Virus record (IMG/VR): IMGVR_UViG_3300042448_002804
Span: 1 to 20,954 of that record
DNA: 20,954 nucleotides
Source: a virus
Reading direction: 5' to 3' (one strand)
Positions within the stretch are counted from its first letter, which is position 1. Each line of letters begins with the position of its first letter. Below the pieces are notes generated by a model, which was not told the DNA's origin, did no database searches, and saw only the letters and a list, made by a program, of their open reading frames with translations. Of this stretch, positions 982 to 12,309 are shown piece after piece. The position numbers were made by a program, and so were the translations under genes.

Positions 982-989
982 TATTATAC
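982..989 (-). promoter_or_regulatory. Class A promoter -10 box (GTATAATA) before the exonuclease
   Basis: The minus strand reads TTAG-TATAAT-A, overlapping the stop codon of the DUF3127 gene. The hexamer ends 17 nt before the exonuclease ATG, allowing a leader of roughly 10 nt. A TTTG lies about 21 nt upstream, but its relevance is uncertain. Confidence 0.5.
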
Positions 990-1399
990 TAATCTAAGAT
1001 ATCCCATGGCAAATCATCATCCTGAATAGGAGTAGACTTTTTAGGCGTACTCGGAGCATCTCCAAATAAGTCATTCATAATTTCATCATCAGTCATATCT
1101 TGCTCGTCTAAAATATTATTAGATTTTGCAATATGAATTTGAGTTGCTTCAATTGTATTGAAATATTTGATTTGGCCGCTAGGACTTTCCCATTTACGAC
1201 CGGCTAATTTATAGCCAACTTGAATTTGATCTCCAGGTTTTGCAAAATCTAGCATTTCGCATTTTTCTTGGATTGCAACAAATGTTACATACTGTGGGTA
1301 CTTATCATTAGTCCCGACTACAAATTCTCTTTTTTTGAATTTGGCTGATACAAATTGAGTATCATCTACATTAATTAGGGTTCCGTTAAAGGTTGACAT
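989..1399 (-). CDS. DUF3127-type single-stranded-DNA-binding-like (OB-fold) protein
   Basis: 136 aa. The core FKKREFVVGT...YPQYVTF (residues 21-40), then GDQIQVGYKLAGRKW (56-70) and IKYFNTIEA (77-85), fits the DUF3127 family, small OB-fold proteins that I associate with Bacteroidetes and their phages. Residues about 95-136 form a disordered acidic tail containing DDDLPW (127-132). This resembles the acidic tip by which bacterial SSBs recruit partner proteins, although here it is followed by DILD rather than ending in Phe. A role in binding ssDNA during phage replication or repair is likely from the fold, the tail and the neighbouring ligase and exonuclease, but it is not proven. The gene starts 1 nt after the guanylate-kinase stop. 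No Shine-Dalgarno sequence precedes the ATG. Confidence 0.75.
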   Translation of the reverse strand: MSTFNGTLINVDDTQFVSAKFKKREFVVGTNDKYPQYVTFVAIQEKCEMLDFAKPGDQIQVGYKLAGRKWESPSGQIKYFNTIEATQIHIAKSNNILDEQDMTDDEIMNDLFGDAPSTPKKSTPIQDDDLPWDILD

Positions 1400-1400
1400 A

Positions 1401-1877
1401 TTAAAAGTTTGGGTTTGTTATTTTTAAATCGTAATCTGAAAATCCAGCAAATAACTCTCTATCTGCTTGAAGTCTTGCATCAACTGTGTGGCCTGGCATA
1501 ACTCTTTCTTCAAGTCGAGTTTTTCTAATTTCTTCTTCAATATCAAAGAATATTACAAATGATTTTGCACGATCTTCTTCAGAAAGATGAGACAGTCCGC
1601 TTGGGGTCATAATAAAAACATCATCTCTATAAAACTGTTTAAGAGTAGTGCCGTATGACCAACCATTAAAATCAATTACTTCATAAAATTCATCTTCATC
1701 TTTCATTGATTGACACTGGTCTTGACTAAGAAAGAAATAATCCTTGCCGTCCTTTTCGCCTGGTCTTGGTGGACGTGTTGTATAACTTACGGCGTAAGTC
1801 ATGCCTCTTTCTTCGAGGCGTTTTCTCATGAAATCTTTACCTGATGCACCAGGTCCTACTAAAATAATTCTTGGCAT
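1401..1877 (-). CDS. gmk: Guanylate kinase-like nucleotide kinase
   Basis: 158 aa. The P-loop GPGASGKD (residues 8-15) binds ATP. The segment SYTTRPPRPGEKDGKDYFF (31-49) is the GMP-binding signature of guanylate kinases (Ser31, Arg35, Arg38, Tyr47). A GWSYGT segment matches the family's later base-binding YGT, and R-rich lid residues plus a C-terminal ITN follow. The enzyme would phosphorylate (d)GMP to (d)GDP to feed phage DNA synthesis. It is shorter than the roughly 200 aa of cellular enzymes, mainly at the C-terminus. Its ATG overlaps the ligase stop (TAATG), so the two are translationally coupled. T4 uses an unrelated-looking gene 1 kinase for this step, so this would be a functional replacement rather than a gene 1 homologue. 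Confidence 0.82.
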   Translation of the reverse strand: MPRIILVGPGASGKDFMRKRLEERGMTYAVSYTTRPPRPGEKDGKDYFFLSQDQCQSMKDEDEFYEVIDFNGWSYGTTLKQFYRDDVFIMTPSGLSHLSEEDRAKSFVIFFDIEEEIRKTRLEERVMPGHTVDARLQADRELFAGFSDYDLKITNPNF

Positions 1878-3172
1878 TATATTGTTCTTGTTTTTTCGTA
1901 AATTGCTTTAATAACTGGAAATCTTAAAGAGTGCTGACCGTGCTGGTCAGTTGTTTCTTCAAAATATTGAACAGTGATTGTTTTACCTAAAATTTGATCT
2001 GGGTTTTTATAAAATTGACGGCGCTGTTCAATTGAAAAACCTGAACCAACTCTAACTTGATTTCCTTTATGTGTAATAAAAATATTTCCAAGCATTTCTT
2101 CTTCAATCTCTCGGCCATCTTCGATAACTCTGTGAGTTGAGTTTTCAACACCTTCTACAATATATTCTGCATCCCAAAATTTCTTGACTTTAAGGATTTC
2201 ATCGCTACGTTTTCCAATATATTGTGTGTCTTTTCTTAGCATTAGACCCTCCCAACCTTGAGCAGTCGAATTAGTAATTTCAGTTTGTAGCTGCTCTTCT
2301 GATTCAATCAAAGTTTGTTTTAAGATTGTAGTATTTTTTAAGTCAATTCCACTAAATATTAAAGCAGCAATTGTAATTCGATCCTTAAAGGTTCTATCAG
2401 TTGAAGAAGTTTGAGTATTAAATTCCTCCAAGGTTAAGCAGTCAAATACCAAATACTTAGGATTTTTAATTGTATGGTTTTTGCGACCAATTTCTTTAAT
2501 AATTCCTTGAAAATCTTCTTGACCCTCAGCATTCATCATACAAACCTCACCATCAAGAACAGTATCAATTAGGTTTAGTTTTTTAATGTCAGCCTTCAGC
2601 GTATCTAGAGTTAAAAACTCATTGCCGCCTCTAGAAAAGAATTTAATTTCGCCTGTCTCATCAATTATCGTAATGCAGCGGACTCCATCTAGTTTACGAC
2701 TCATATACCAATGATCTTCAAGCCTTACTTTCTTTTTGGTTTTATCGTCATATGGTAGAGCTAGCGCAACGTCAAATGTTGGAATAGTTCCTGGAAGAAC
2801 TGAATTAATTAGAGTAGTTGTAGCACGAGTTTTTAGGTTGCGATCTAAGATACTATAGATCACTTCTGAGAACTCCAAATTCTTAGCTATAAATCCATTA
2901 ACACAAGCAATTGCAGAGTTGCCAGTGACACGACGTTCATTCAGGTCGTCTAATAATTGGAACAAGTCATCGTAATTATCGAAGATAAGGTCCTGATGTT
3001 TCTTTAAGTTTGCTGGAGTAACATAGTATTGCTTAAATGGAGAATACGTATATTCCAGGATCTTTCTAAGAAATGGACTATCAAATTGACTAAGTACTGC
3101 TTTTTTATCATTAGTCGATGATGTTACATTCATCGATTCAATAAATTCCTGAATTTGCTTGAGATTTGTCAT
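1877..3172 (-). CDS. ATP-dependent DNA ligase
   Basis: 431 aa from the ATG at 3172. An upstream in-frame TTG at 3187 is rejected because it overlaps the T-tract of the terminator and the -10 box. Nucleotidyltransferase motifs in order: motif I KLDG (adenylated Lys160), FFSRGGNEF (motif III region), LDGEV (206-210), EGLMLR (308-313) and LKVKKFWDAE (motif V, Lys328 and Lys330). A C-terminal OB domain with NQVRVGSGFS and GKTITVQYFE follows. This fits T4 gp30-type ligases, which seal nicks during replication, recombination and repair. It is the first gene of the operon ligase-kinase-SSB-like-exonuclease. A TATAAT box ends 6 nt before the ATG, predicting a leaderless mRNA. Confidence 0.93.
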   Translation of the reverse strand: MTNLKQIQEFIESMNVTSSTNDKKAVLSQFDSPFLRKILEYTYSPFKQYYVTPANLKKHQDLIFDNYDDLFQLLDDLNERRVTGNSAIACVNGFIAKNLEFSEVIYSILDRNLKTRATTTLINSVLPGTIPTFDVALALPYDDKTKKKVRLEDHWYMSRKLDGVRCITIIDETGEIKFFSRGGNEFLTLDTLKADIKKLNLIDTVLDGEVCMMNAEGQEDFQGIIKEIGRKNHTIKNPKYLVFDCLTLEEFNTQTSSTDRTFKDRITIAALIFSGIDLKNTTILKQTLIESEEQLQTEITNSTAQGWEGLMLRKDTQYIGKRSDEILKVKKFWDAEYIVEGVENSTHRVIEDGREIEEEMLGNIFITHKGNQVRVGSGFSIEQRRQFYKNPDQILGKTITVQYFEETTDQHGQHSLRFPVIKAIYEKTRTI

Positions 3173-3177
3173 ATACT

Positions 3178-3185
3178 TATTATAC
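3178..3185 (-). promoter_or_regulatory. Class A promoter -10 box (GTATAATA) before the DNA ligase
   Basis: The minus strand reads TTTG-TATAAT-A, fused directly to the T-tract of the upstream terminator. The hexamer ends exactly 6 nt before the ligase ATG at 3172. The place of a -35 element is occupied by the terminator hairpin, so recognition would depend on the -10 region. Confidence 0.55.
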
Positions 3186-3213
3186 AAAAAAGGAGACCAA
3201 TTTGGTCTCCTTT
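3186..3213 (-). terminator. Intrinsic terminator after the 171-aa gene
   Basis: A perfect 12-bp inverted repeat (arms 3189-3200 and 3202-3213, core GGAGACC/GGTCTCC, one-base centre) is followed on the minus strand by six T (3191-3186). It ends transcription of the gene at 3238-3753 and insulates the ligase operon. Confidence 0.85.
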
Positions 3214-3237: not shown

Positions 3238-3753
3238 TTAGGCGGGAGTTTCCTCTGTTTTAGGAGCCTCGACTGGAGTTTCAAGAGCTTTAATTGCTTT
3301 ATCCAACTCATGAACTTTTGAATAGGCACTGTTTAATTGGAAAGAAACTTTAAATAATGCTTGTGCATTATGCAAACCTGTGAATTTTGCTCTATTTAAA
3401 AAGTAAAGACACGATTCGATACAAGCGGCAGGTAATCTAACTGGGCTAACCTCAGAATTTTTACCTTCTCCTTTATGGTTTTCAATTTCTCCCAATAGCA
3501 TGTTATGATTTTGTAGAATAACGAAAGCTTCGTTTGGTCCAGTAAATTCAACACTATTTTTTAAGAAATTTCTCAACCACTTAAGATCATCTTGCGTCAT
3601 AGATGGAACATCAAAATGACCACGACGTTGTGCTTTAAGACTTTCGATTTCTGATAATTCTTGTTGAGGTTCAGTTACCTCGGTAGATTGATCCATAATC
3701 TGATCAACTTGTTCTAAAATTTGCTCTTCTTGAGTTACAGTTTCGTTTGACAT
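3238..3753 (-). CDS. Hypothetical protein, 171 aa
   Basis: The ATG at 3753 (MSNETVTQEEQ) is preferred over an in-frame upstream start at 3807, because the longer form would read through the promoter box at 3777-3784 and the end of the Nudix gene. Residues 1-45 are Glu/Gln-rich and probably disordered. About 50-155 are helical, with QDDLKWLRNFLKNS and a late AALFKVSF-like segment, and the tail is Pro/Glu/Thr-rich. There is no signal peptide or membrane helix. I do not recognise the family. It is a single-gene unit with its own promoter and a strong terminator, which suggests substantial, independently timed expression. Confidence 0.75.
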   Translation of the reverse strand: MSNETVTQEEQILEQVDQIMDQSTEVTEPQQELSEIESLKAQRRGHFDVPSMTQDDLKWLRNFLKNSVEFTGPNEAFVILQNHNMLLGEIENHKGEGKNSEVSPVRLPAACIESCLYFLNRAKFTGLHNAQALFKVSFQLNSAYSKVHELDKAIKALETPVEAPKTEETPA

Positions 3754-3776
3754 AAATATCTTTGTTTTTGTTAAGA

Positions 3777-3784
3777 TATTATAC
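3777..3784 (-). promoter_or_regulatory. Class A promoter -10 box (GTATAATA) before the 171-aa gene
   Basis: The minus strand reads TTGG-TATAAT-A, just after the Nudix stop codon. The hexamer ends 24 nt before the ATG at 3753, allowing a short leader of about 17 nt. A TTG lies about 21 nt upstream of the hexamer. Confidence 0.5.
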
Positions 3785-3790
3785 CAAACT

Positions 3791-4273
3791 CTATTCGATA
3801 GTTTCAATTAAACGTTGAGCAATTATCTGTTGAGATCTTGATAATTTTTCAACTGCTTCTTGGAATGGAATAAATCCAGCCCAATCTACCTCCTCGGCTT
3901 GTAGTTGTTCTTTAGGTAATTTAGGCGAATCGAGGCCAATTTGTTCAAGACTCTCAATGTGTACCTCAAAATAAGCGCAGCGACTGTGAGGAATACCGCG
4001 ACGGTAAAATACAAAATATTTCTCATTTTTATCAATTAGTTCTGGATCTACCGTAACCCCGGTCTCTTCTCTAGTTTCACGAATTGCGCAAGTTAAAAGA
4101 TCTTCACCTAGTTCAATTCCTCCTTTAGGAATTCCAAAAGGTTGATTTTTCCAACTTGCATTTGATGGATGAATTAATAAAAGCTTTCCTTCCCAGATAA
4201 TAGCGAGGCCGGCTGCTCTAATTTCAAGCTGCTTTTCGCTTTCTGCTAAATAGTCTGTGAAGGTAAAAATCAT
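3791..4273 (-). CDS. Nudix hydrolase
   Basis: 160 aa. The Nudix box is complete and canonical at residues 51-73: G-x5-E-x7-RETREETGV, with Glu66, Glu69 and Glu70 available for metal binding. It is preceded by the usual strand AAGLAIIWEGKLLLI (20-34) and WKNQPFGIPKGG. Such enzymes hydrolyse nucleoside diphosphates linked to a moiety X; the substrate here (oxidised dNTP, NAD-like compound, RNA 5' cap or other) cannot be told from sequence. The ATG overlaps the bS21 stop (ATGA). The N-terminal extension MIFTFTDYLAES before the domain looks like a T4 capsid-targeting peptide with an L-x-E cleavage site, so the enzyme might be packaged in the head; this is a hypothesis. Confidence 0.9.
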   Translation of the reverse strand: MIFTFTDYLAESEKQLEIRAAGLAIIWEGKLLLIHPSNASWKNQPFGIPKGGIELGEDLLTCAIRETREETGVTVDPELIDKNEKYFVFYRRGIPHSRCAYFEVHIESLEQIGLDSPKLPKEQLQAEEVDWAGFIPFQEAVEKLSRSQQIIAQRLIETIE

Positions 4274-4464
4274 TTATTATTTACATCTCGCTTTTTTTGA
4301 ATGTACTTTGCTTTATTAATTTCAGAACGACGCTTTACACTAGGCTTTTCGAATTCTTTACGGTCACGTAAGTTTTGTAATTGCTTAGTGTCAATAACCT
4401 TTCGCTTAAGTATTTTTAGAGCTCGCTCTAATGAGTCTGAATTTTTTATATCAATAATTAGCAT
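4270..4464 (-). CDS. rpsU: Ribosomal protein bS21, phage-encoded, Bacteroidetes type
   Basis: 64 aa from the ATG at 4464, 4 nt after the stop of the S74-domain gene; an in-frame upstream ATG at 4494 lies inside that gene and is not favoured. The protein begins MLIIDIKNSDSLERALKILK and continues with QLRDR-like LQNLRDRKEFEKPSVKRR and KAKYIQKK, matching Bacteroidetes bS21 closely in length and layout. bS21 binds the small subunit next to the 3' end of 16S rRNA. In Flavobacteria, bS21 with bS18 and bS6 is reported to hide the anti-Shine-Dalgarno sequence, a contact involving Tyr54; this protein has Tyr at position 54. It probably exchanges with host bS21 on ribosomes. No Shine-Dalgarno precedes it. 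It is cotranscribed with the Nudix gene (4-nt overlap). Confidence 0.88.
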   Translation of the reverse strand: MLIIDIKNSDSLERALKILKRKVIDTKQLQNLRDRKEFEKPSVKRRSEINKAKYIQKKRDVNNK

Positions 4465-4468
4465 TAAC

Positions 4469-6079
4469 TTAAATTTGTTTAAAGTCAACATCAATTAAAT
4501 CATAATTAACTGAATAAAAATCATCTTCTAGGATTACCGCAGATTCAAATTTTGTTCCAATTAATTCTTGGGCCATTACCCCTTGATAATATCCCTCTTT
4601 ATCTTTATATTTAAATGAATAAATGTTTAGACCGCTTTCTGACGTACCTATTAAATTAATATCGTCCTTTAGTCTAGAGTCCGACATAATTCCACCAACG
4701 GCTGGGTCATTGGGGTTAGATTGAGTAACTTTTGCTGGTGCAGCTGGTATGCTACTTAGAGCCTTTTCTAAAACATCTCCACCTAATGCATTCAAATCTG
4801 ATACAGCCTTAAACCAAGCCTCATCGCCAGAACCCTTTCCACCATCTGCTTCAAGCGCACTAATCGGAAAAGACTTTCCATTTGTCGATTGGAGTGGAGA
4901 AATATATTTTTCATAAGTCGACTTCCACTCTGAACTAACTTCTCCTAATATGTAATCGCTTAGACTTAAACTATTTGGAATATTAATACCAGCAGTTTTA
5001 GCATAACCGTTAAGAGTATTTAGAGCAGATTGTCTTAGTCCTATTAATATTGCATAAAATGCTTGGGCTTCAGATGTATCAAAATTTGTACTGGACATGG
5101 CCTTTTCTACTTTATATGAGATGTAGTCATAACCAGAGGTAAATGTTGCATCCTTTGCAGGATCTCCTTTCTTACCTACTACAGAATTACCTAAGTCTGC
5201 GATTGAGGCAAATGGCACAGAATCTATTCCGGGCGCAAACTGTGAATATATTTTATTTGTAACTGGCCAATACCCAGCTGTGTATTTACGAAGTGAGCTA
5301 GCATCAATTGTCATATCTTTTTTATTAATAAAGCCAGCCGGCTTAGTAAACACTTCGTAACCTTTACTTTCTAATTTGGTTTTAATTAAAGAGTATAGAG
5401 CCGGGCTCTCTGTTTTTAAATTAAACATTCTCATATAAAAATACCAAGATAGGTTGATACTTCTTCTTGAAAAGGAAGATACTACTGCATTTAATTCAAG
5501 CTCACTACTTGGAACAACGCTTACATTAGTCTTTTCAATTTTACCGGTTGCTAAATCTATAATCTCAGACTGTCCGCCCAGTCCAGTTATTGTAAGCTTG
5601 CCGCTACCAATTGTATAAGTTCCACTATACAAATACGGAATATCCGTTGCAGACTTTTTCCAGTGAACTATTACTTCCTGTCCGCCTTCTGTTTTAAAAA
5701 TATATTCTTTATCAGTTTTAACTGGAGTTTTACTTGTAGGAGAATATACTTCTCCACCAGTCGAAGTCCATGCTACAGCCCAAGGCCAAGGTTCTTTAAT
5801 AGTTTTATCTGTTCCAACTTTAACTCCATCTTGATCATGTAGAATACTGCCTGGTAATTTCAATAGAGATACCCACGGCTCCTTATCTTTAAGTTCAGAG
5901 CGAGTGTCAGTAGGAGCGGGATCAGTATCAGTATCTGTGTTAGTATCATCCTTTCTAGTTCTCCTCCCTTTACCGTCAGCTGGTTGTGTAGTTGGAGTAG
6001 TAATAGTTCCACTTTGAAGAGCGCTAAGATCAGGTGGACCTTGCTCTAATAAAATAGATATCGATTTAATTTTCTTCAT
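4469..6079 (-). CDS. Fibre-like virion protein with C-terminal peptidase S74 chaperone domain
   Basis: 536 aa. The C-terminal 71 residues form a short intramolecular chaperone (peptidase S74) domain. It starts at SDSRLKDDI, with Ser466 as the likely self-cleavage site and Lys471 as its partner, then GLNIYSFKYK, YYQGVMAQEL and YSVNYDLIDV. Such domains trimerise the protein and are then cleaved off; they are known from tail spikes and fibres. Residues 20-65 are low complexity, with repeated Thr-Asp (TDTDTDP). The middle has no motif I recognise. The first residues, MKKIKSISILLEQ, end in L-x-E like the Nudix and 556-aa neighbours. A late-type promoter box precedes the gene. A tail fibre or adhesin is most likely; an internal head protein is the alternative if the N-terminus is a capsid-targeting signal. 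Confidence 0.8.
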   Translation of the reverse strand: MKKIKSISILLEQGPPDLSALQSGTITTPTTQPADGKGRRTRKDDTNTDTDTDPAPTDTRSELKDKEPWVSLLKLPGSILHDQDGVKVGTDKTIKEPWPWAVAWTSTGGEVYSPTSKTPVKTDKEYIFKTEGGQEVIVHWKKSATDIPYLYSGTYTIGSGKLTITGLGGQSEIIDLATGKIEKTNVSVVPSSELELNAVVSSFSRRSINLSWYFYMRMFNLKTESPALYSLIKTKLESKGYEVFTKPAGFINKKDMTIDASSLRKYTAGYWPVTNKIYSQFAPGIDSVPFASIADLGNSVVGKKGDPAKDATFTSGYDYISYKVEKAMSSTNFDTSEAQAFYAILIGLRQSALNTLNGYAKTAGINIPNSLSLSDYILGEVSSEWKSTYEKYISPLQSTNGKSFPISALEADGGKGSGDEAWFKAVSDLNALGGDVLEKALSSIPAAPAKVTQSNPNDPAVGGIMSDSRLKDDINLIGTSESGLNIYSFKYKDKEGYYQGVMAQELIGTKFESAVILEDDFYSVNYDLIDVDFKQI

Positions 6080-6102: not shown

Positions 6103-7769
6103 GCCTTTTTATAATATTCAGTTCGGTAAAATGTAATAGCTTGTGCTAAATCATTATCCCATCCAAAGCCCTTTTTAACTAAATCTATGTCAGCTTGGAT
6201 TGGTCCAGTTATCGATCCGGTCTTTCTCTTAGACATGGCTAGTAAATCAGCGGCAGTTGGGACTCTATTTAAAGTCGGTTGGCCAGAAATAGGAGATTTA
6301 GTTTGTTTATCTAGTAAAATTAAACGTAAAATTCCAAGGGCCGAATGTATTCCAGTAAAGTTTGGCGTAAAAATCTTAGCTGTTCCATCTGCATTAAATG
6401 CACCAATGTTAGATGTATCAAATTCAAGAATAATATTTCCGGTGCTATCAGTTGCCTTCCATGCAGAGGCGTTCTTAAAAGAATCTCCAGCCGCAGTAAC
6501 TAAGCCTGATGAAAAGGTTGGGTGTAATTTATTATTTACAAATATATCTGCATCAGTATAACCAGTACCTTTTAAAATTTCAATAAGTTCCTGTTCATTT
6601 TCGATGCTAGTTGGTCCAGCTAAGCGTGCTGTTTGCTTTTTCTTCTTTGCAGCCAGTGTAGCTTGATCCATAGCCGAACCTTGTCCAGCAGCAGGTTGAC
6701 CCGAAGCAGGCTGTCCGCCTGCCGGTGCGGCAGAAGCAGCGGCTGTTACCGAATCAATAAAAGTTTTTAGTGTTGGATATGTATCAGTTTCAACCTCTGA
6801 TCTTGGAATTAGCCCGTTATTTACTGCATAAATTAACCAAACTGACATAATTGAAACCAATTGAGTTTTTGTTAGTTTATCTAAATCGTATGATGGACCA
6901 ACTTTATAATCAGGATCTCCGGATTTATTTAAGATCTCAGTAAATGCAGACTTAATGTCAGGGGTATACGAATCAACTTGGCCTTTAACTAATGAATTTA
7001 GTGGACTTTGTGAACTAAAAAATTTACTAAGCACAAGCATAACTGGAGACATGTCTCCTATCTTAATTATTTCATTATCTTTTAGTAGTACATCTGGTGA
7101 AGCTGGATTTCTAAATGTACCATTGACGACTTTTGTAAAATACACCATACCGCCATTAGGTTTTCCACCAGGTCCGGCCTTTGGCATAATTGTATTTAAT
7201 TCCATCATTGTAAGCTTGGAAGTAGATTGAGCCGAAGTTGTAGTTGAAGAAGTTGTAGAATTAGTTGAAGCTTTGCCAGAAGAATTTATAATATTTGCCA
7301 AATTTTGCTGGATTGACTCTCCGCTTTTTCTTGGCGTAGAAAGAACATGAAGGGCTGTAATATTATTTGAGCCAGTTTTTCCTAGTAATTGCTCTGGATT
7401 TACAGATTTTACCGAATCATCTGTTACATTTTTAAATATGTAAACGTGGCCCTCTATACGGTTTTTTCCTCCAAGAAGACCTGCCTTATTTGAAGGATCT
7501 GCTGAAATTCCAACGGCAGCTGGGCTAGACAAACTATTGATAGTTGTCTTGATTTGATTAGCATCGCCTTCAGTTGAATTTATAATGTAATCTAAAATTG
7601 ATTTAGGCGTAATAATTGAAGTAGACTTCTTAGGATAAGTATAAGAATATGCAAATCGCTTAGGCACAAGTCCATTTAATAAGTTATCTTCTGGACGACC
7701 TTCTAATTTAAATTTAACGTCTTCTTCTGCTTCAAGTATTAATTGGTTTAGACTAGTATAGTTTTTCAT
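6099..7769 (-). CDS. Hypothetical virion-type protein, 556 aa
   Basis: The ATG at 7769 lies 2 nt after the stop of the 843-aa gene. The N-terminus MKNYTSLNQLILEAEED resembles T4 capsid-targeting peptides, with a possible cleavage after Glu13. Residues about 165-185 are Ser/Thr-rich, and about 345-375 form a Pro/Ala/Gly/Gln linker (repeats of GQPA) followed by a KKKK patch, separating two globular parts. There is no signal peptide, membrane helix or enzymatic motif I can identify. Its position between an 843-aa membrane-active-looking protein and the S74 fibre-like protein, under late-type control, argues for a virion component. I do not recognise the family. Confidence 0.75.
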   Translation of the reverse strand: MKNYTSLNQLILEAEEDVKFKLEGRPEDNLLNGLVPKRFAYSYTYPKKSTSIITPKSILDYIINSTEGDANQIKTTINSLSSPAAVGISADPSNKAGLLGGKNRIEGHVYIFKNVTDDSVKSVNPEQLLGKTGSNNITALHVLSTPRKSGESIQQNLANIINSSGKASTNSTTSSTTTSAQSTSKLTMMELNTIMPKAGPGGKPNGGMVYFTKVVNGTFRNPASPDVLLKDNEIIKIGDMSPVMLVLSKFFSSQSPLNSLVKGQVDSYTPDIKSAFTEILNKSGDPDYKVGPSYDLDKLTKTQLVSIMSVWLIYAVNNGLIPRSEVETDTYPTLKTFIDSVTAAASAAPAGGQPASGQPAAGQGSAMDQATLAAKKKKQTARLAGPTSIENEQELIEILKGTGYTDADIFVNNKLHPTFSSGLVTAAGDSFKNASAWKATDSTGNIILEFDTSNIGAFNADGTAKIFTPNFTGIHSALGILRLILLDKQTKSPISGQPTLNRVPTAADLLAMSKRKTGSITGPIQADIDLVKKGFGWDNDLAQAITFYRTEYYKKA

Positions 7770-7771
7770 AA

Positions 7772-10303
7772 TTATTTAAATAATACATTTGGATTTACGT
7801 CCGCGCCAAAAAAGTTTGGCATATAAGACGGGTCTGCTTTTACTTTAGCTAATTCAGATTTAATCCAAGCAATTTCAGTTGGATTTGGATATAAAGAAGG
7901 TTTTGAGAGTCTATCGGCATTTGCTGAAACCTTATTATAATAGCTTCCATATAAATCCATTAATGAATTAATTTTATTTACAATAGAGCCTTCGTATGAT
8001 ATTTCTCCATTTTGAATTTGTGCTAAGTGATACCATAATCCTCTAACTCCAAGATCGGCATCGAGTCTAGCTTCTGCAATTAAATTAGGATCAGTTCCAG
8101 CATTAAATTCTACAAAAATTCCTTCCGTTGAATTATTTACTCTCGGTACACCAGTTTGATCTAGAACTTGATTAACTGCATCATCATTAGCAGTTGCGCT
8201 CAATGGAGTAGCTCCAGTTATCTCTTGAATTTTAGAAGTATTATCACCATGTCCGCCGGTATCAGTCAAAGTTTGGGTCGCAGCTGCAGTGTCGATAACT
8301 TGAGCTGGAACACTTAAACAAATATCATTAAAGCTCTTAGGACCAATAATTGCAATAAGCTGTGTATCTGCAATCTTTTTGGTTTCAACTGCTACTTCCT
8401 TTTTTAATTCTTCAGTTTGGATAGTAACGTTTGTATTTTGTTCAACACTTCCCCAATTACTGAACTCTGAGCTAGCTTTAAATTCATCTTCAGTTTTAGT
8501 AGCCTCTGCTAAAAATTCGTATTTGTATTTAATATACTTTAATCCTTCATTAAATTCTCCAAATCCTTTCTTATCAGCAGTCTTTTCTGGTCCAAACATT
8601 TTACCAAGATTACCAGTAAGAACGTTTGCGCCCTTTGCCATAAAACTAACTGGGCAACGCAATGCTGCGCCGATTAAATATTTTGCAGTAATAAGGCGGT
8701 TTCTATTAAATCTTCTTCTTACTAAAGCTATACCAAGATCTCCCAATTCATCTTGAAGTTTTGCAAATTTTGCAGCAGCTTGGGTTCCAGCCTCTGACAA
8801 TTTAATTGCAATTTCAGGGTTTTTTGCAAATACTCTAAATAGTTGAGTTACGCCTGGGCCAGCATCATTTAATACTTTGACTGTTTCTGGGTGGCTTACT
8901 AACCAACCAAAAAATTTCTTAATATTTTCGGGATCGTCCTTTAAAGTTTTAAAAATATCTGCTGATAGACTTGTACCCTTTCCACCAACTGCTGCGGCTG
9001 ACCAATATTTTGCAAGAACCTCTCCGCCAGCCTCATCTAATTTAAGAAGACCTTTTACAAACAATTTATTTGATTCCATTTCATAATAAACAGCTCTCAT
9101 TTCATTGTCTAGCATATCAAGCTCAGCTTTTTCAATGGGCTTTTTCAACTTTGATCTAAAATCGATAAGTTCATTTTTAAATTTATCAAAGTTTGCATCA
9201 ACTGCCTTTCTAAATAGGTCTGGATTGGAAGCCATTTCCTTAGTAAATGCAAGTTCTGAACTTGCAAGCATTTTTCTGAAAGGAACATGTTGAGCAATAT
9301 CTCCAAATTTTCCAGCTGCAATTAACTCATCAATATTATCTGTAATTTTCGAAATATCTCCAGTCTTTATTAGAGATGCAATATCCTCGCCGCCTTTAAG
9401 TACGGTCTCGCCACCAAATTTTTCTAGATTTCTAGCAACTGGTGTGATTACTTCATCAACCCAAGAAATAAGTTTCTTTCCTAATGCAGTACTTCCACCA
9501 AATGTAAGCCAACTAATAGGAGGCATACTTAATATATGGCCAATTCCTAAAGCAATACCATGAAAAACTTTAAGCATAATTGTACCAACTGATGACATTC
9601 CATCTAATACAACCTTTGCACCAGAGTCTGTAGCAAGCTCAGCAATAAGTTTTTCTTCAGCTTTACCTGTTTTAATAATAGATTCAAATGCTTTTTCTAA
9701 TTTGGCTGCATTTTTACCGTATTTTACCGCTTTTGCTGCATCACCAATTCCAGGTAAAAACGCTGCAATTGCACTAATTCCTGCATCCAACCAGCGTCCT
9801 CTAAACATGTAAATTATAGCATTTAATCCATCTGCAACAACATCAATTGGAAATCCAAAGTATGATGCTGGAATAAATCCAATTAAATCTAATAAGAATT
9901 GAAGAATGCCAATTGGCGAACTGTCTTCAGTTAACGCATTCCATAAACCAGCTAAAAAATCAACTACTCCTTCATTAATTGAAGTATATTCATCGATAAT
10001 TCTAGTTATTTGGTAATTTGATTCAACGAAAAGATTTTCTCCAATAAGACCCTTAGCAAATAGAGTATGCTCGATTTGGGTAATTTCAGACTGGTTAAAT
10101 CCAACGCTTTCTAATGAAAGCTGATACTTTCTAAAATCTGCAGTATCGGTTGCAGTTTGTACGTCCTGAATTCGGATTGCACAGTTTTCAATAATGTTAA
10201 TAAGAGACTCTCCAAACTCATTAATAAATGATGATAATCTCTCCGCGTCCCCAGGGTTTAGTGATAATACAGATTCCCTAGATTGAATATATTTTGATGC
10301 CAT
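7772..10303 (-). CDS. Large virion-type protein with a membrane-active-looking hydrophobic domain, 843 aa
   Basis: Residues 112-200 contain two hydrophobic helices: LQFLLDLIGFIPASYFGF, then GLNAIIYMFRGRWLDAGISA and IAAFLPGIGDAAKA. This Gly/Pro pattern is typical of the hydrophobic pre-toxin or delivery region of polymorphic toxins and of some phage ejected proteins. A second hydrophobic, Gly-rich stretch follows at 233-275. Residues 280-600 are largely helical, and 610-843 are mixed with Ser/Thr/Gly-rich parts. No C-terminal toxin or lysin motif is visible. A plausible role is a tail or head protein inserted into the host membrane during DNA entry. It is preceded by a late-type promoter box and by the stop of the glycosyltransferase-like gene, and followed closely by the 556-aa gene. 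The function is inferred from composition and context only. Confidence 0.7.
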   Translation of the reverse strand: MASKYIQSRESVLSLNPGDAERLSSFINEFGESLINIIENCAIRIQDVQTATDTADFRKYQLSLESVGFNQSEITQIEHTLFAKGLIGENLFVESNYQITRIIDEYTSINEGVVDFLAGLWNALTEDSSPIGILQFLLDLIGFIPASYFGFPIDVVADGLNAIIYMFRGRWLDAGISAIAAFLPGIGDAAKAVKYGKNAAKLEKAFESIIKTGKAEEKLIAELATDSGAKVVLDGMSSVGTIMLKVFHGIALGIGHILSMPPISWLTFGGSTALGKKLISWVDEVITPVARNLEKFGGETVLKGGEDIASLIKTGDISKITDNIDELIAAGKFGDIAQHVPFRKMLASSELAFTKEMASNPDLFRKAVDANFDKFKNELIDFRSKLKKPIEKAELDMLDNEMRAVYYEMESNKLFVKGLLKLDEAGGEVLAKYWSAAAVGGKGTSLSADIFKTLKDDPENIKKFFGWLVSHPETVKVLNDAGPGVTQLFRVFAKNPEIAIKLSEAGTQAAAKFAKLQDELGDLGIALVRRRFNRNRLITAKYLIGAALRCPVSFMAKGANVLTGNLGKMFGPEKTADKKGFGEFNEGLKYIKYKYEFLAEATKTEDEFKASSEFSNWGSVEQNTNVTIQTEELKKEVAVETKKIADTQLIAIIGPKSFNDICLSVPAQVIDTAAATQTLTDTGGHGDNTSKIQEITGATPLSATANDDAVNQVLDQTGVPRVNNSTEGIFVEFNAGTDPNLIAEARLDADLGVRGLWYHLAQIQNGEISYEGSIVNKINSLMDLYGSYYNKVSANADRLSKPSLYPNPTEIAWIKSELAKVKADPSYMPNFFGADVNPNVLFK

Positions 10304-10323: not shown

Positions 10324-10334
10324 CTTTATTTATC
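10324..10334 (-). promoter_or_regulatory. Class B (T4-late-like) promoter box before the 843-aa gene
   Basis: The minus strand reads GATAAATAAAG, followed by AAAAA, and overlaps the stop codon of the glycosyltransferase-like gene. It lies about 20 nt before the ATG at 10303. Confidence 0.5.
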
Positions 10335-11409
10335 TAAATGGAAACAGATTTGAAATACACTTAGAATAGATGGAAGCTCGGTCAGAAGGGCTAGAGTCTT
10401 TAAAAAATGCCAGAATTTCTTCTAATTTAACCAAATCTGTAAATCCAAGAGCTTCATGAATACGATAATCTTTATATGAGACTGGAATCGCGCCAAATAT
10501 AAGGCTTTCGTATACCCTGGCTGGATAAAATCCGCGTTCTACATAAAGATCCTTTGAAATATTTAAACTAATAGTTGAACTTGCATATTCATTCCAAATA
10601 TCAAAACGATCGTATCGTTTAATTAATTTAATATGTCTTTCTGTAAACTCTTCTGCTAAAGTTGGGTCAAGCTTTCCAGCTACTGATACCTCATATTTTT
10701 TTCCAGTAAATGATTTAAACTCTGCAGAATTTTTAATTGCATCAACTACAATTGGATTTTTTGCATGACCTGCTTTATAATTTCCAAATGAAATATTTCC
10801 ATAATAAAAAATCTTATTGTTTCTATCAAAACGATCTGTTTCTTCTAACCAAACCTTTTCGCAGTCTTTAATAAAGGCCTTTGATATGTTTGGATAGTCT
10901 ATTGATGGAATTTCAAATGAGATTCCTTGAGATTTGCAAAATTCCACAAACTCTGGTTCTAGTGAAAGATCTGTATCTAGTATTACAACCTTATTTGCCT
11001 GGCCACTTTGAATCGCTGCTGTAATAATTAGTTCAAACTGCTTAGCATCAGTTAATTGTTTAGTTAAAGTTGAAAGATTTCTAAATCTAGCCTTTAGAAA
11101 TATTTTTTCATATCGACCCTTTTCAATATTTTCCATAATTTTCGGAAAACTTAAATTGTAGGAACGAATTCTTTCTTTGGTAAATTTTTCAAAAACTGGC
11201 GTAACTGGGCTCTTTGGCCAAACTGGAGATTTTTGATCTGCTCCAATCGAATCATGTGATAAGTAGGAATAAAAATCGACTTTATCTACATGATGAGAAA
11301 GACATAATTGATCAATTAGACCAAGTTGATAAAATGTGTGACCTGGAATATCTGTTGAAAAATCACCTAGATATCCAAAATATGCATATAATGCAGCTGG
11401 GGTATTCAT
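10330..11409 (-). CDS. Glycosyltransferase-like protein (GT-B C-terminal signature)
   Basis: 359 aa from the ATG at 11409. An in-frame upstream ATG at 11436 is rejected because the -10 box lies downstream of it. Residues 280-311 (SLNISKDLYVERGFYPARVYESLIFGAIPV) have the layout of the nucleotide-sugar-binding C-terminal motif of GT-B glycosyltransferases: R-x-[YF]-E followed by a small-residue GAIPV turn. The segment KVVILDTDLSLE (140-151) looks like a Rossmann strand end. The donor, acceptor and target (DNA, virion protein or host surface glycan) cannot be told. It has its own TATAAT box, with a terminator upstream, and sits inside the late region, so it looks like an independently expressed insert next to the FkbM methyltransferase. 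Confidence 0.62.
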   Translation of the reverse strand: MNTPAALYAYFGYLGDFSTDIPGHTFYQLGLIDQLCLSHHVDKVDFYSYLSHDSIGADQKSPVWPKSPVTPVFEKFTKERIRSYNLSFPKIMENIEKGRYEKIFLKARFRNLSTLTKQLTDAKQFELIITAAIQSGQANKVVILDTDLSLEPEFVEFCKSQGISFEIPSIDYPNISKAFIKDCEKVWLEETDRFDRNNKIFYYGNISFGNYKAGHAKNPIVVDAIKNSAEFKSFTGKKYEVSVAGKLDPTLAEEFTERHIKLIKRYDRFDIWNEYASSTISLNISKDLYVERGFYPARVYESLIFGAIPVSYKDYRIHEALGFTDLVKLEEILAFFKDSSPSDRASIYSKCISNLFPFR

Positions 11410-11414
11410 ATTTT

Positions 11415-11422
11415 TATTATAC
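11415..11422 (-). promoter_or_regulatory. Class A promoter -10 box (GTATAATA) before the glycosyltransferase-like gene
   Basis: The minus strand reads ATTG-TATAAT-A, with exactly 6 nt (AAAAAT) between the hexamer and the ATG at 11409. It predicts a leaderless transcript and fixes the start codon. Confidence 0.55.
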
Positions 11423-11444
11423 AATAGTTTCATCATAAGATTAC

Positions 11445-11490: not shown

Positions 11491-12309
11491 TTAACCTCTC
11501 TTTACTGCTGCAAAGTGAGTAATCCAAGTTTTAGTATTTTCAACATTAGGGCAAACATAAATGTCATCAAAATTTGCTCTAAAAATATCTAAGATTTCAT
11601 TGAATTTTTCAACACGCCCTTTAGAAAGATTACGATAGTGGAAATGGTATTCAATAATAGCAATTCTGATATTTGACCAATCTTCTACAGATTTAATCAA
11701 ATCGTATTCAGCGCCCTCTACATCCATTTTTAAGCAGGTTGCTTCTTTAAGGGCTTCGCTAAAGTTTTTAGCAGGAACTGTTACTTGAGTACGACCTCTA
11801 ACTGGAAGTAGTGAGTGTTTACCTGAATCCCAAGCTAAAAAGAAGTCTACATTTTTTGTATCATCGTTTGGTACAAGTGCAGCCTCAATCATTTCACAAC
11901 GGTCAGCTACGCCATTTTCTCCAAGATTAAGTTCAGCAAACTCAATATTATTACGAAAAGGTTCATACGACAAAACTTTCTTAATTCTTGGAAACTGAGT
12001 TAGCAAACGAGTAGCAAACACTCCAATATGTCCACCTGCATCTAACCACACGTCTTCCTGATCTAAGTCTTCTAACTGAAATTGATGACCATTAGTATTC
12101 CAATCGGTTCTAAATAATGGACTAAAGTATTCCCCGCCTGTAGCAGTTTTACTGATGTTTTGATTAATATTGTATTTAACTTCATCTTCTGAACGTACAA
12201 ATAAACTGTAATTAAAATACGGTGTGTCTTTTTTGGTATGGATTAGGAGTCCGCGTTCTCTAGCTTCTTCTAGACTAATCAATACGTCTGCTGTTTTCTG
12301 TTTTGCCAT
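11491..12309 (-). CDS. FkbM-family SAM-dependent methyltransferase
   Basis: 272 aa. The SAM-binding motif I is VWLDAGGHIGVFA (88-99; Asp90, Gly92, Gly96). It is followed by the acidic ribose-contact segment SYEPFRNN (114-121) and the hallmark FkbM segment CLKMDVEGAEYDLI (192-205). IAIIEYHFHY (216-225) is a further conserved strand. FkbM enzymes O-methylate sugars or small molecules. In phages they usually occur with glycan-modifying genes, here the glycosyltransferase-like gene immediately downstream. A joint role in altering virion or host surface glycans is plausible but inferred. The gene is a single-gene unit: a terminator and TATAAT box precede it and another terminator follows. Confidence 0.88.
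   Translation of the reverse strand: MAKQKTADVLISLEEARERGLLIHTKKDTPYFNYSLFVRSEDEVKYNINQNISKTATGGEYFSPLFRTDWNTNGHQFQLEDLDQEDVWLDAGGHIGVFATRLLTQFPRIKKVLSYEPFRNNIEFAELNLGENGVADRCEMIEAALVPNDDTKNVDFFLAWDSGKHSLLPVRGRTQVTVPAKNFSEALKEATCLKMDVEGAEYDLIKSVEDWSNIRIAIIEYHFHYRNLSKGRVEKFNEILDIFRANFDDIYVCPNVENTKTWITHFAAVKRG

Follow-up and report, generated by a model that had tools for sequence, protein, structure and literature searches.

We give a probability of roughly 0.6 to the reading that the bS21 encoded by a 20,954-base virus sequence (34.7% G+C; the whole stretch is called the window below) is a functional ribosomal protein that joins the host 30S subunit, keeps ribosomes blind to Shine-Dalgarno (SD) sequences, is translated from an SD-less, coupled start outside the host regulatory loop, and has changed relative to host bS21 in helix 1. 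The core idea, a phage bS21 substituting in ribosomes, is largely published (PMC9723584, PMC6375957 and PMC9976891), and the protein described here adds to known phage bS21s. To this the present analysis adds the viral versus host SD counts, the helix-1 signature and a bS21-Nudix-ligase gene block with an ATGA overlap.

The open reading frame at 4464..4270 (minus strand, as are all genes named here) begins with ATG, ends with TGA and encodes 64 residues. The identification of this rpsU homologue as a real bS21 was confirmed by a PF01165 profile score of 46.5 bits (cut-off 27), a match to the PHROG 'ribosomal protein S21' (E 1.7e-5) and a best solved relative, Flavobacterium johnsoniae bS21 (7jil_z; E 3.7e-11), with which residues 1-60 align without gaps. 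An alternative in-frame start, TTG at 4494, would lengthen the protein; in 56 of 58 relatives the codon at the MLII start itself is ATG or GTG, the other two being without a start there. Five pairwise comparisons gave dN values of 0.07-0.13 against dS values of 0.95-1.38, and the gene is under purifying selection. Comparison with host proteins showed the core residues to be host-like, and the predicted model has a two-helix layout (residues 12-34 and 41-63; mean pLDDT 85.8, pTM 0.46). A Foldseek comparison of the isolated model was dropped as evidence because its best E value was a non-significant 0.37; eight of its nine rows were ribosome entries, whose chains have 55-92 residues.

Immediately upstream, a gene for a virion protein with a C-terminal Peptidase_S74-type chaperone (4469..6079, minus; PF13884 22.6 bits, cut-off 22; PHROG virion structural protein, E 2.5e-12) ends four bases before the bS21 ATG. 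Downstream, the bS21 stop overlaps the start of a Nudix hydrolase gene (3791..4273, minus; PF00293, 53.3 bits) as ATGA at 4273-4270, an overlap kept in 17/17 window-type loci other than L284. In sequence the coupled hydrolases (L002-L017, L019, L284) weakly resemble Nudix hydrolase 1, the mRNA-decapping protein g5R and Ap4A hydrolases. The next gene of the block (3238..3807, minus; first ATG of the frame at 3753) encodes a conserved protein that matched nothing in Pfam or PHROG at 1e-3, and it follows the Nudix gene in window-type loci that reach far enough. A strong hairpin preceding a T run (3187..3213, minus; -20.3 kcal/mol, z -7.2), which a pattern scan did not list, is the probable terminator of the bS21-Nudix-3238 unit. 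Beyond it lie genes for an ATP-dependent DNA ligase (1877..3187, minus; PHROG 114, E 2.8e-84) and a DUF3127/SSB-like protein (989..1399, minus; PF11325, 70.8 bits), the latter a marker of host lineage. Window-type loci keep the order bS21, Nudix hydrolase, 3238 gene, ligase, guanylate kinase and SSB as far as they reach, and the gene upstream of bS21 varies among them. The same bS21-Nudix-3238 order was found in a distant phage (L284), with 36% identity in the Nudix protein, 33% in the 3238 protein and a more host-like bS21. Among 106 unique viral bS21 proteins, 77 have the layout of the phages of Chen et al. (opposite strand, prohead-protease-/portal-type neighbours), 10 are encoded on the same strand ahead of scaffold/capsid-type genes, 5 beside DnaJ-/PhoH-type genes, 8 are of the window type and 6 lie elsewhere, the neighbours in these counts being named by eye from their sequences and not by profile search. 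The window also holds an FkbM-type methyltransferase gene (PF05050) at 11491-12309 and, beside it, a 368-aa gene at 10330-11436 that is glycosyltransferase-like by eye.

A host in the Bacteroidota, with no finer placement, is made likely by three features: the DUF3127 protein, the SD-less genes and the cellular bS21 proteins nearest to that of the phage. The single genome with DUF3127 among 14 controls was Bacteroides ihuae. When 395 Flavobacteriales-type genomes (host order names of this kind were deduced by us) were compared with 19,990 of the 20,954 bases, at least 152 had a DNA match at E 0.01 or better, and none of the matches listed made a convincing host link. Genome G549 was rejected as host: its strongest matches were ligase homologues on two contigs, and no bS21 was present in the 14,184 of 14,184 and 8,000 of 22,404 bases read. 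A candidate CRISPR spacer in G476, the only exact match listed, was likewise discarded as 25 A+T-rich bases with no repeat array around them. A 16S gene in G106 (L209) has the tail CATCTCC, a changed anti-SD, at a locus that also holds N.

To score SDs, the 22 bases 5' of each start were paired with a 16S tail, and a window further upstream served as a mock; the tail was read from one Bacteroidia 16S gene (L208). The original observation that the phage bS21 gene and the phage genes around it are SD-less was upheld. Best pairing before the bS21 start at 4464 was 0 kcal/mol, far from the extended SD (below -13 kcal/mol) that marks autoregulated host-type rpsU, and folding of the start region (4465..4488, minus) was not unusual (z -0.35). 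None of the 22 called window genes had an SD below -7 kcal/mol, and the lone value below -4 (-5.2, before 3187) came from one arm of the terminator-like hairpin. No excess of SDs was seen across 518 genes of viral loci, with 29 below -4 (mock 28) and 3 below -7 (mock 8). Strong SDs (below -13) preceded 0 of 202 viral bS21 genes, or 0 of 110 non-redundant ones; a single gene fell below -10 in either set, and five and three, respectively, fell below -7. Among the viral bS21 genes only the one below -10, in L236, has a fair SD before it (AAAGGAGG, upstream of 3001; -10.35 kcal/mol). Four of 206 viral loci (L019, L042, L334, L337) were left out as having no start codon in view, a further 21 loci from an F. 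johnsoniae query were read separately from the 206, and one search behind the viral set contributed the best 80 of at least 549 relatives, so that the set is not a full census. The scoring recovered SDs where expected: of 123 genes from SD-using genomes, 27 lay below -7 (mock 7), and 15 of 25 bS21 genes there lay below -13, so that a strong SD before rpsU is no speciality of the Bacteroidota.

We give an even chance to the proposal that the missing SD has no regulatory meaning, phage genes being SD-less as a rule and many host rpsU genes likewise, with bS21 an ordinary operon gene. The window genes and the mock-level counts for viral loci fit this proposal, and the host leaders bear on it in both directions. 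The original proposal was that host rpsU genes often keep an SD for feedback control and that the phage gene could escape this feedback. The first part stands for Flavobacterium, where the SD of control rpsU genes reached -19.3 kcal/mol (L364, L365) and rpsU autoregulation is driven by the SD (McNutt 2023, PMC9976891); it fails as a general statement: with one copy counted per genome, only 17 of the 109 sampled from the Flavobacteriales-type order (16%) had an rpsU SD below -13. In the order of G001, another Bacteroidia order with 144 positive genomes, the count was 1 of 92 loci, L061 among them being from another MAG; it was 5/28 in a class-wide set restricted to top-scoring loci and 10/30 in a set picked for likeness to F. 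johnsoniae. Both top-ranked cellular loci of the genome scan lacked an rpsU SD (L060, -0.37 kcal/mol; L061, -1.07 kcal/mol). Host sampling began with the order to which MAG L060 belongs; since the rpsU genes there were unlike that of Flavobacterium, a second sample was drawn around G244, whose bS21 is 97% identical to that of F. johnsoniae. About 80% of Flavobacteriales are reported to have an SD before rpsU (PMC9976891), and our lower share of 16% may be due to a sample spread over GTDB species, with many genomes under 2 Mb.

Such scarcity favours an SD-less start without regulatory meaning, as does the non-significant difference between viral genes and the order of G001 (p 0.46), whereas the Flavobacteriales-type order differs clearly from the viral genes (0/110 against 17/109; p 4e-6, relatedness ignored). 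Escape from feedback therefore depends on host identity: the phage gene is SD-less, but escape is meaningful only if the host rpsU has an SD. Most of the possible hosts sampled have no strong rpsU SD, and for these there may perhaps be no feedback to escape.

A further argument for regulatory meaning comes from genomes with several bS21 genes. More than one bS21 match was present in 4 of 119 Flavobacteriales-type genomes; in one (G520) the two copies (L413, L467) encode identical proteins. In the remaining three (G415, G499, G514) the host-type copy has a strong SD (-16.5, -16.5 and -17.5 kcal/mol), whereas three of the four extra copies are no stronger than -1.3 kcal/mol and the fourth (L463) is moderate at -8.5. 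The extra copies (L471, ~7101-7253; L472, ~9001-9153; L473, ~9001-9159; L474, ~9001-9159) adjoin a sigma-70-like gene, named by eye and one gene away in L473. Extra bS21 copies also occur in other orders (L468-L470). These sigma-linked copies resemble phage bS21 in Tyr54, in the missing SD of three of the four and, in one (L464), in V23/K27/Q28, but unlike it they are chromosomal, in 3 of 119 genomes. Descent of phage bS21 from them was rejected, as only 7 of 106 viral proteins were closer to them than to canonical host bS21.

The original observation also placed a tyrosine of the phage protein at the anti-SD contact position, and alignment with host bS21 proteins bore this out. In both pairwise and multiple alignments residue 54 (codon 4305-4303, minus), a tyrosine, falls without gaps in the column of F. 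johnsoniae Tyr54, whose stacking on A1534 is described in PMC9723584. By alignment, the aromatic residue of Bacteroidota anti-SD-sequestering bS21 is thus kept. The column is lineage-specific: of 203 unique canonical Bacteroidia host proteins, 201 have an aromatic residue there (192 Tyr, 6 Phe, 3 His; the other two Arg), against none of 22 unique bS21 proteins from Deltaproteobacteria-, Nitrospira- and similar genomes in one genome scan; 32 further Flavobacteriales-type host proteins had 27 Tyr, 3 His and 1 Phe, with one cut short. The 106 unique viral proteins comprise 89 with Tyr, 3 with His, 3 with Phe, 8 with Arg, 1 with Thr and 2 cut short. All eight Arg54 proteins are encoded beside scaffold- and capsid-type genes, and the 19 loci of that group have 17 Arg (L035-L039, L041, L043-L053), one His and one Tyr. 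An SD below -4 kcal/mol precedes 0 of the 49 genes of this mostly-Arg54 group, which thus matches the other groups in lacking SDs; Tyr54 is therefore common in SD-less phages without being required. The group counts against our preferred reading, as do the 2 of 203 host proteins with Arg54, and it differs from the phages of Chen et al. (2022, PMC9723584), where Tyr54 was present in 54 of 61 bS21 proteins and an aromatic residue in all 61.

Less survives of the proposal that phage bS21 locks ribosomes in the SD-blind state, since little would change if the host ribosomes were SD-blind already through their own bS21. In vitro, Y54A ribosomes equalled wild type on an SD-less tuf reporter (McNutt 2023, PMC9976891), which counts against a benefit of Tyr54 itself for SD-less messages; output of an rpsU reporter was 3-fold higher with Y54A ribosomes (PMC9976891). 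With Tyr54 kept, phage bS21 should preserve the SD-blind state and not create it, and a lock would be no gain by itself. Two gains are left as possible: more bS21-filled ribosomes, initiating better on SD-less messages, and a changed choice of messages via helix 1.

Phage bS21 might instead be a dosage supplement, an exchangeable protein that becomes limiting during heavy virion protein synthesis, with no need for takeover or a change of selectivity. Ribosomes without bS21 or its C-terminus initiate worse on SD-less mRNAs (PMC9976891), bS21 is expressed late together with structural genes in Chen's phages (PMC9723584), and Tyr54 and the core residues are kept here, all of which suits a supplement. 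We nevertheless hold this reading to be doubtful, because the change in helix 1 is unexpected for a mere extra copy. V23, K or R at 27 and Q28 are combined in 98 of the 106 unique viral proteins and in 0 of 203 unique host proteins; singly, V23 was found in 0/203 and Q28 in 1/203 host proteins, and 32 proteins from further Flavobacteriales-type genomes, outside the 203, also lacked the signature. In the phage protein the residues are V23, K27 and Q28 (codons 23-28 at 4381..4398, minus), all within the predicted helix 12-34. On these comparisons the clearest change from host bS21 lies in helix 1 and not at the C-terminus.

This signature raises the alternative of a selectivity switch, in which the V23/K27/Q28 face alters mRNA uptake by the 30S subunit in favour of phage messages, a role that Chen et al. 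proposed for the divergent positions in their phages. It recurs in four unlike genome positions, with 6/8 unique proteins of the window type, 77/77 of the Chen type, 10/10 of the scaffold/capsid type and 5/5 of the DnaJ/PhoH type, and its residues share one predicted helix. As many viral loci had come from the phage query, host queries were added: the L060 query gave 30 unique proteins, 27 of them with the signature, and the F. johnsoniae query gave 21 viral loci, of which 20 carry it as read by eye. The exception, L476, is a 72-kb virus-collection record with a host-type bS21 and upstream bases as in L374-type host loci; it was not accepted as a viral bS21 and was treated as host DNA, being possibly host DNA or a prophage. 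A switch of this kind nonetheless strikes us as unlikely. Common descent could explain the signature, which is missing from 6/6 proteins in other positions and from the window-type proteins L012 and L284, a pattern that argues against a strict need. A poorly resolved tree (140 bS21 proteins aligned over 64 columns; 82 of its 137 inner branches are open, and its 58 viral rows need 4 label changes) was used only to place most viral rows outside the canonical host clade. Chen et al. (PMC9723584) reported positions 21, 23, 25 and 28 as divergent and placed the helix over the mRNA path. At these positions the phage protein differs from host in V23 and Q28, has Asp25 where hosts mostly have K or R, and is host-like in R21; the 'Asp25' of Chen et al. 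mismatches the 7jil_z numbering (D24, K25). The helix-1 result extends their finding to other phage groups and to the present phage.

In our preferred reading, a functional bS21 that preserves SD-blindness, the phage protein would most likely enter the host 30S subunit, replacing or adding to host bS21. Retention of the C-terminal helix with Tyr54 would, judging from the alignment and the published F. johnsoniae mutants, keep the 16S tail hidden and the ribosomes SD-blind, a state suited to SD-less phage genes. The layout suggests that translation of phage bS21 may start by coupled re-initiation after the virion gene four bases upstream and would need no SD. Because the start is SD-less, synthesis would lie outside the loop: as ribosomes fill with bS21, phage bS21 synthesis would continue undiminished, and that of a host rpsU with an extended SD, where present, would fall. 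Any phage-specific selectivity would arise from helix 1 (V23, K27, Q28) rather than from Tyr54. A stronger version, in which the 30S-filling phage protein hides the anti-SD, silences a host rpsU translated well only by bS21-free ribosomes and so, its own SD-less coupled gene still being translated, displaces host bS21 without a protease, with the helix-1 face shifting message choice and the coupled Nudix hydrolase acting on RNA ends or nucleotides, seems improbable to us. McNutt et al. (PMC9976891) suggested that a phage protease might help exchange and saw the host loop as a counter-defence, and the portions of the open-licence literature consulted contain no statement that phage bS21 itself shuts the host loop. 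If the stronger version holds, phage takeover of a ribosomal protein would run through the host's own autoregulatory loop, and the result would be virus-made specialised ribosomes; even otherwise, the kept Tyr54 set against the changed helix-1 face indicates the part of bS21 whose exchange in F. johnsoniae would reveal what the phage protein does. That phage bS21 is a virion-packaged protein, decoy or inhibitor rather than a ribosomal protein is very unlikely given the strong protein constraint and host-like core residues, although its position beside a virion gene and the inhibition of E. coli ribosomes by a pelagiphage bS21 (PMC6375957), the only points in its favour, would fit such a role.

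Among known systems, the bS21 of the Bacteroidetes myoviruses for which Chen et al. (2022, PMC9723584) propose substitution into ribosomes is likewise of Bacteroidota type, with an aromatic residue 54 and differences from host at 23 and 28. In those phages the gene is reversed inside a terminase/portal/protease/capsid block, whereas here it lies on the same strand, between a virion S74-type gene and the Nudix-ligase block, and their divergence at position 21 is not shared, the phage protein having Arg as in F. johnsoniae. Pelagiphage HTVC008M, with an alphaproteobacterial host, also encodes a bS21 (Mizuno et al. 2019, PMC6375957); this protein enters E. coli ribosomes, a point in favour of our preferred reading, and, once incorporated, lowers their translation to about 5% in vitro, which by analogy would count against our preferred reading. 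F. johnsoniae bS21 (PMC9976891; 7JIL) shares with the phage protein its length class, an ungapped alignment and Tyr54, and differs in having F, G and T where the phage has V23, K27 and Q28. Flavobacterium-type rpsU has an extended, autoregulating SD (PMC9976891), whereas the phage gene has none.
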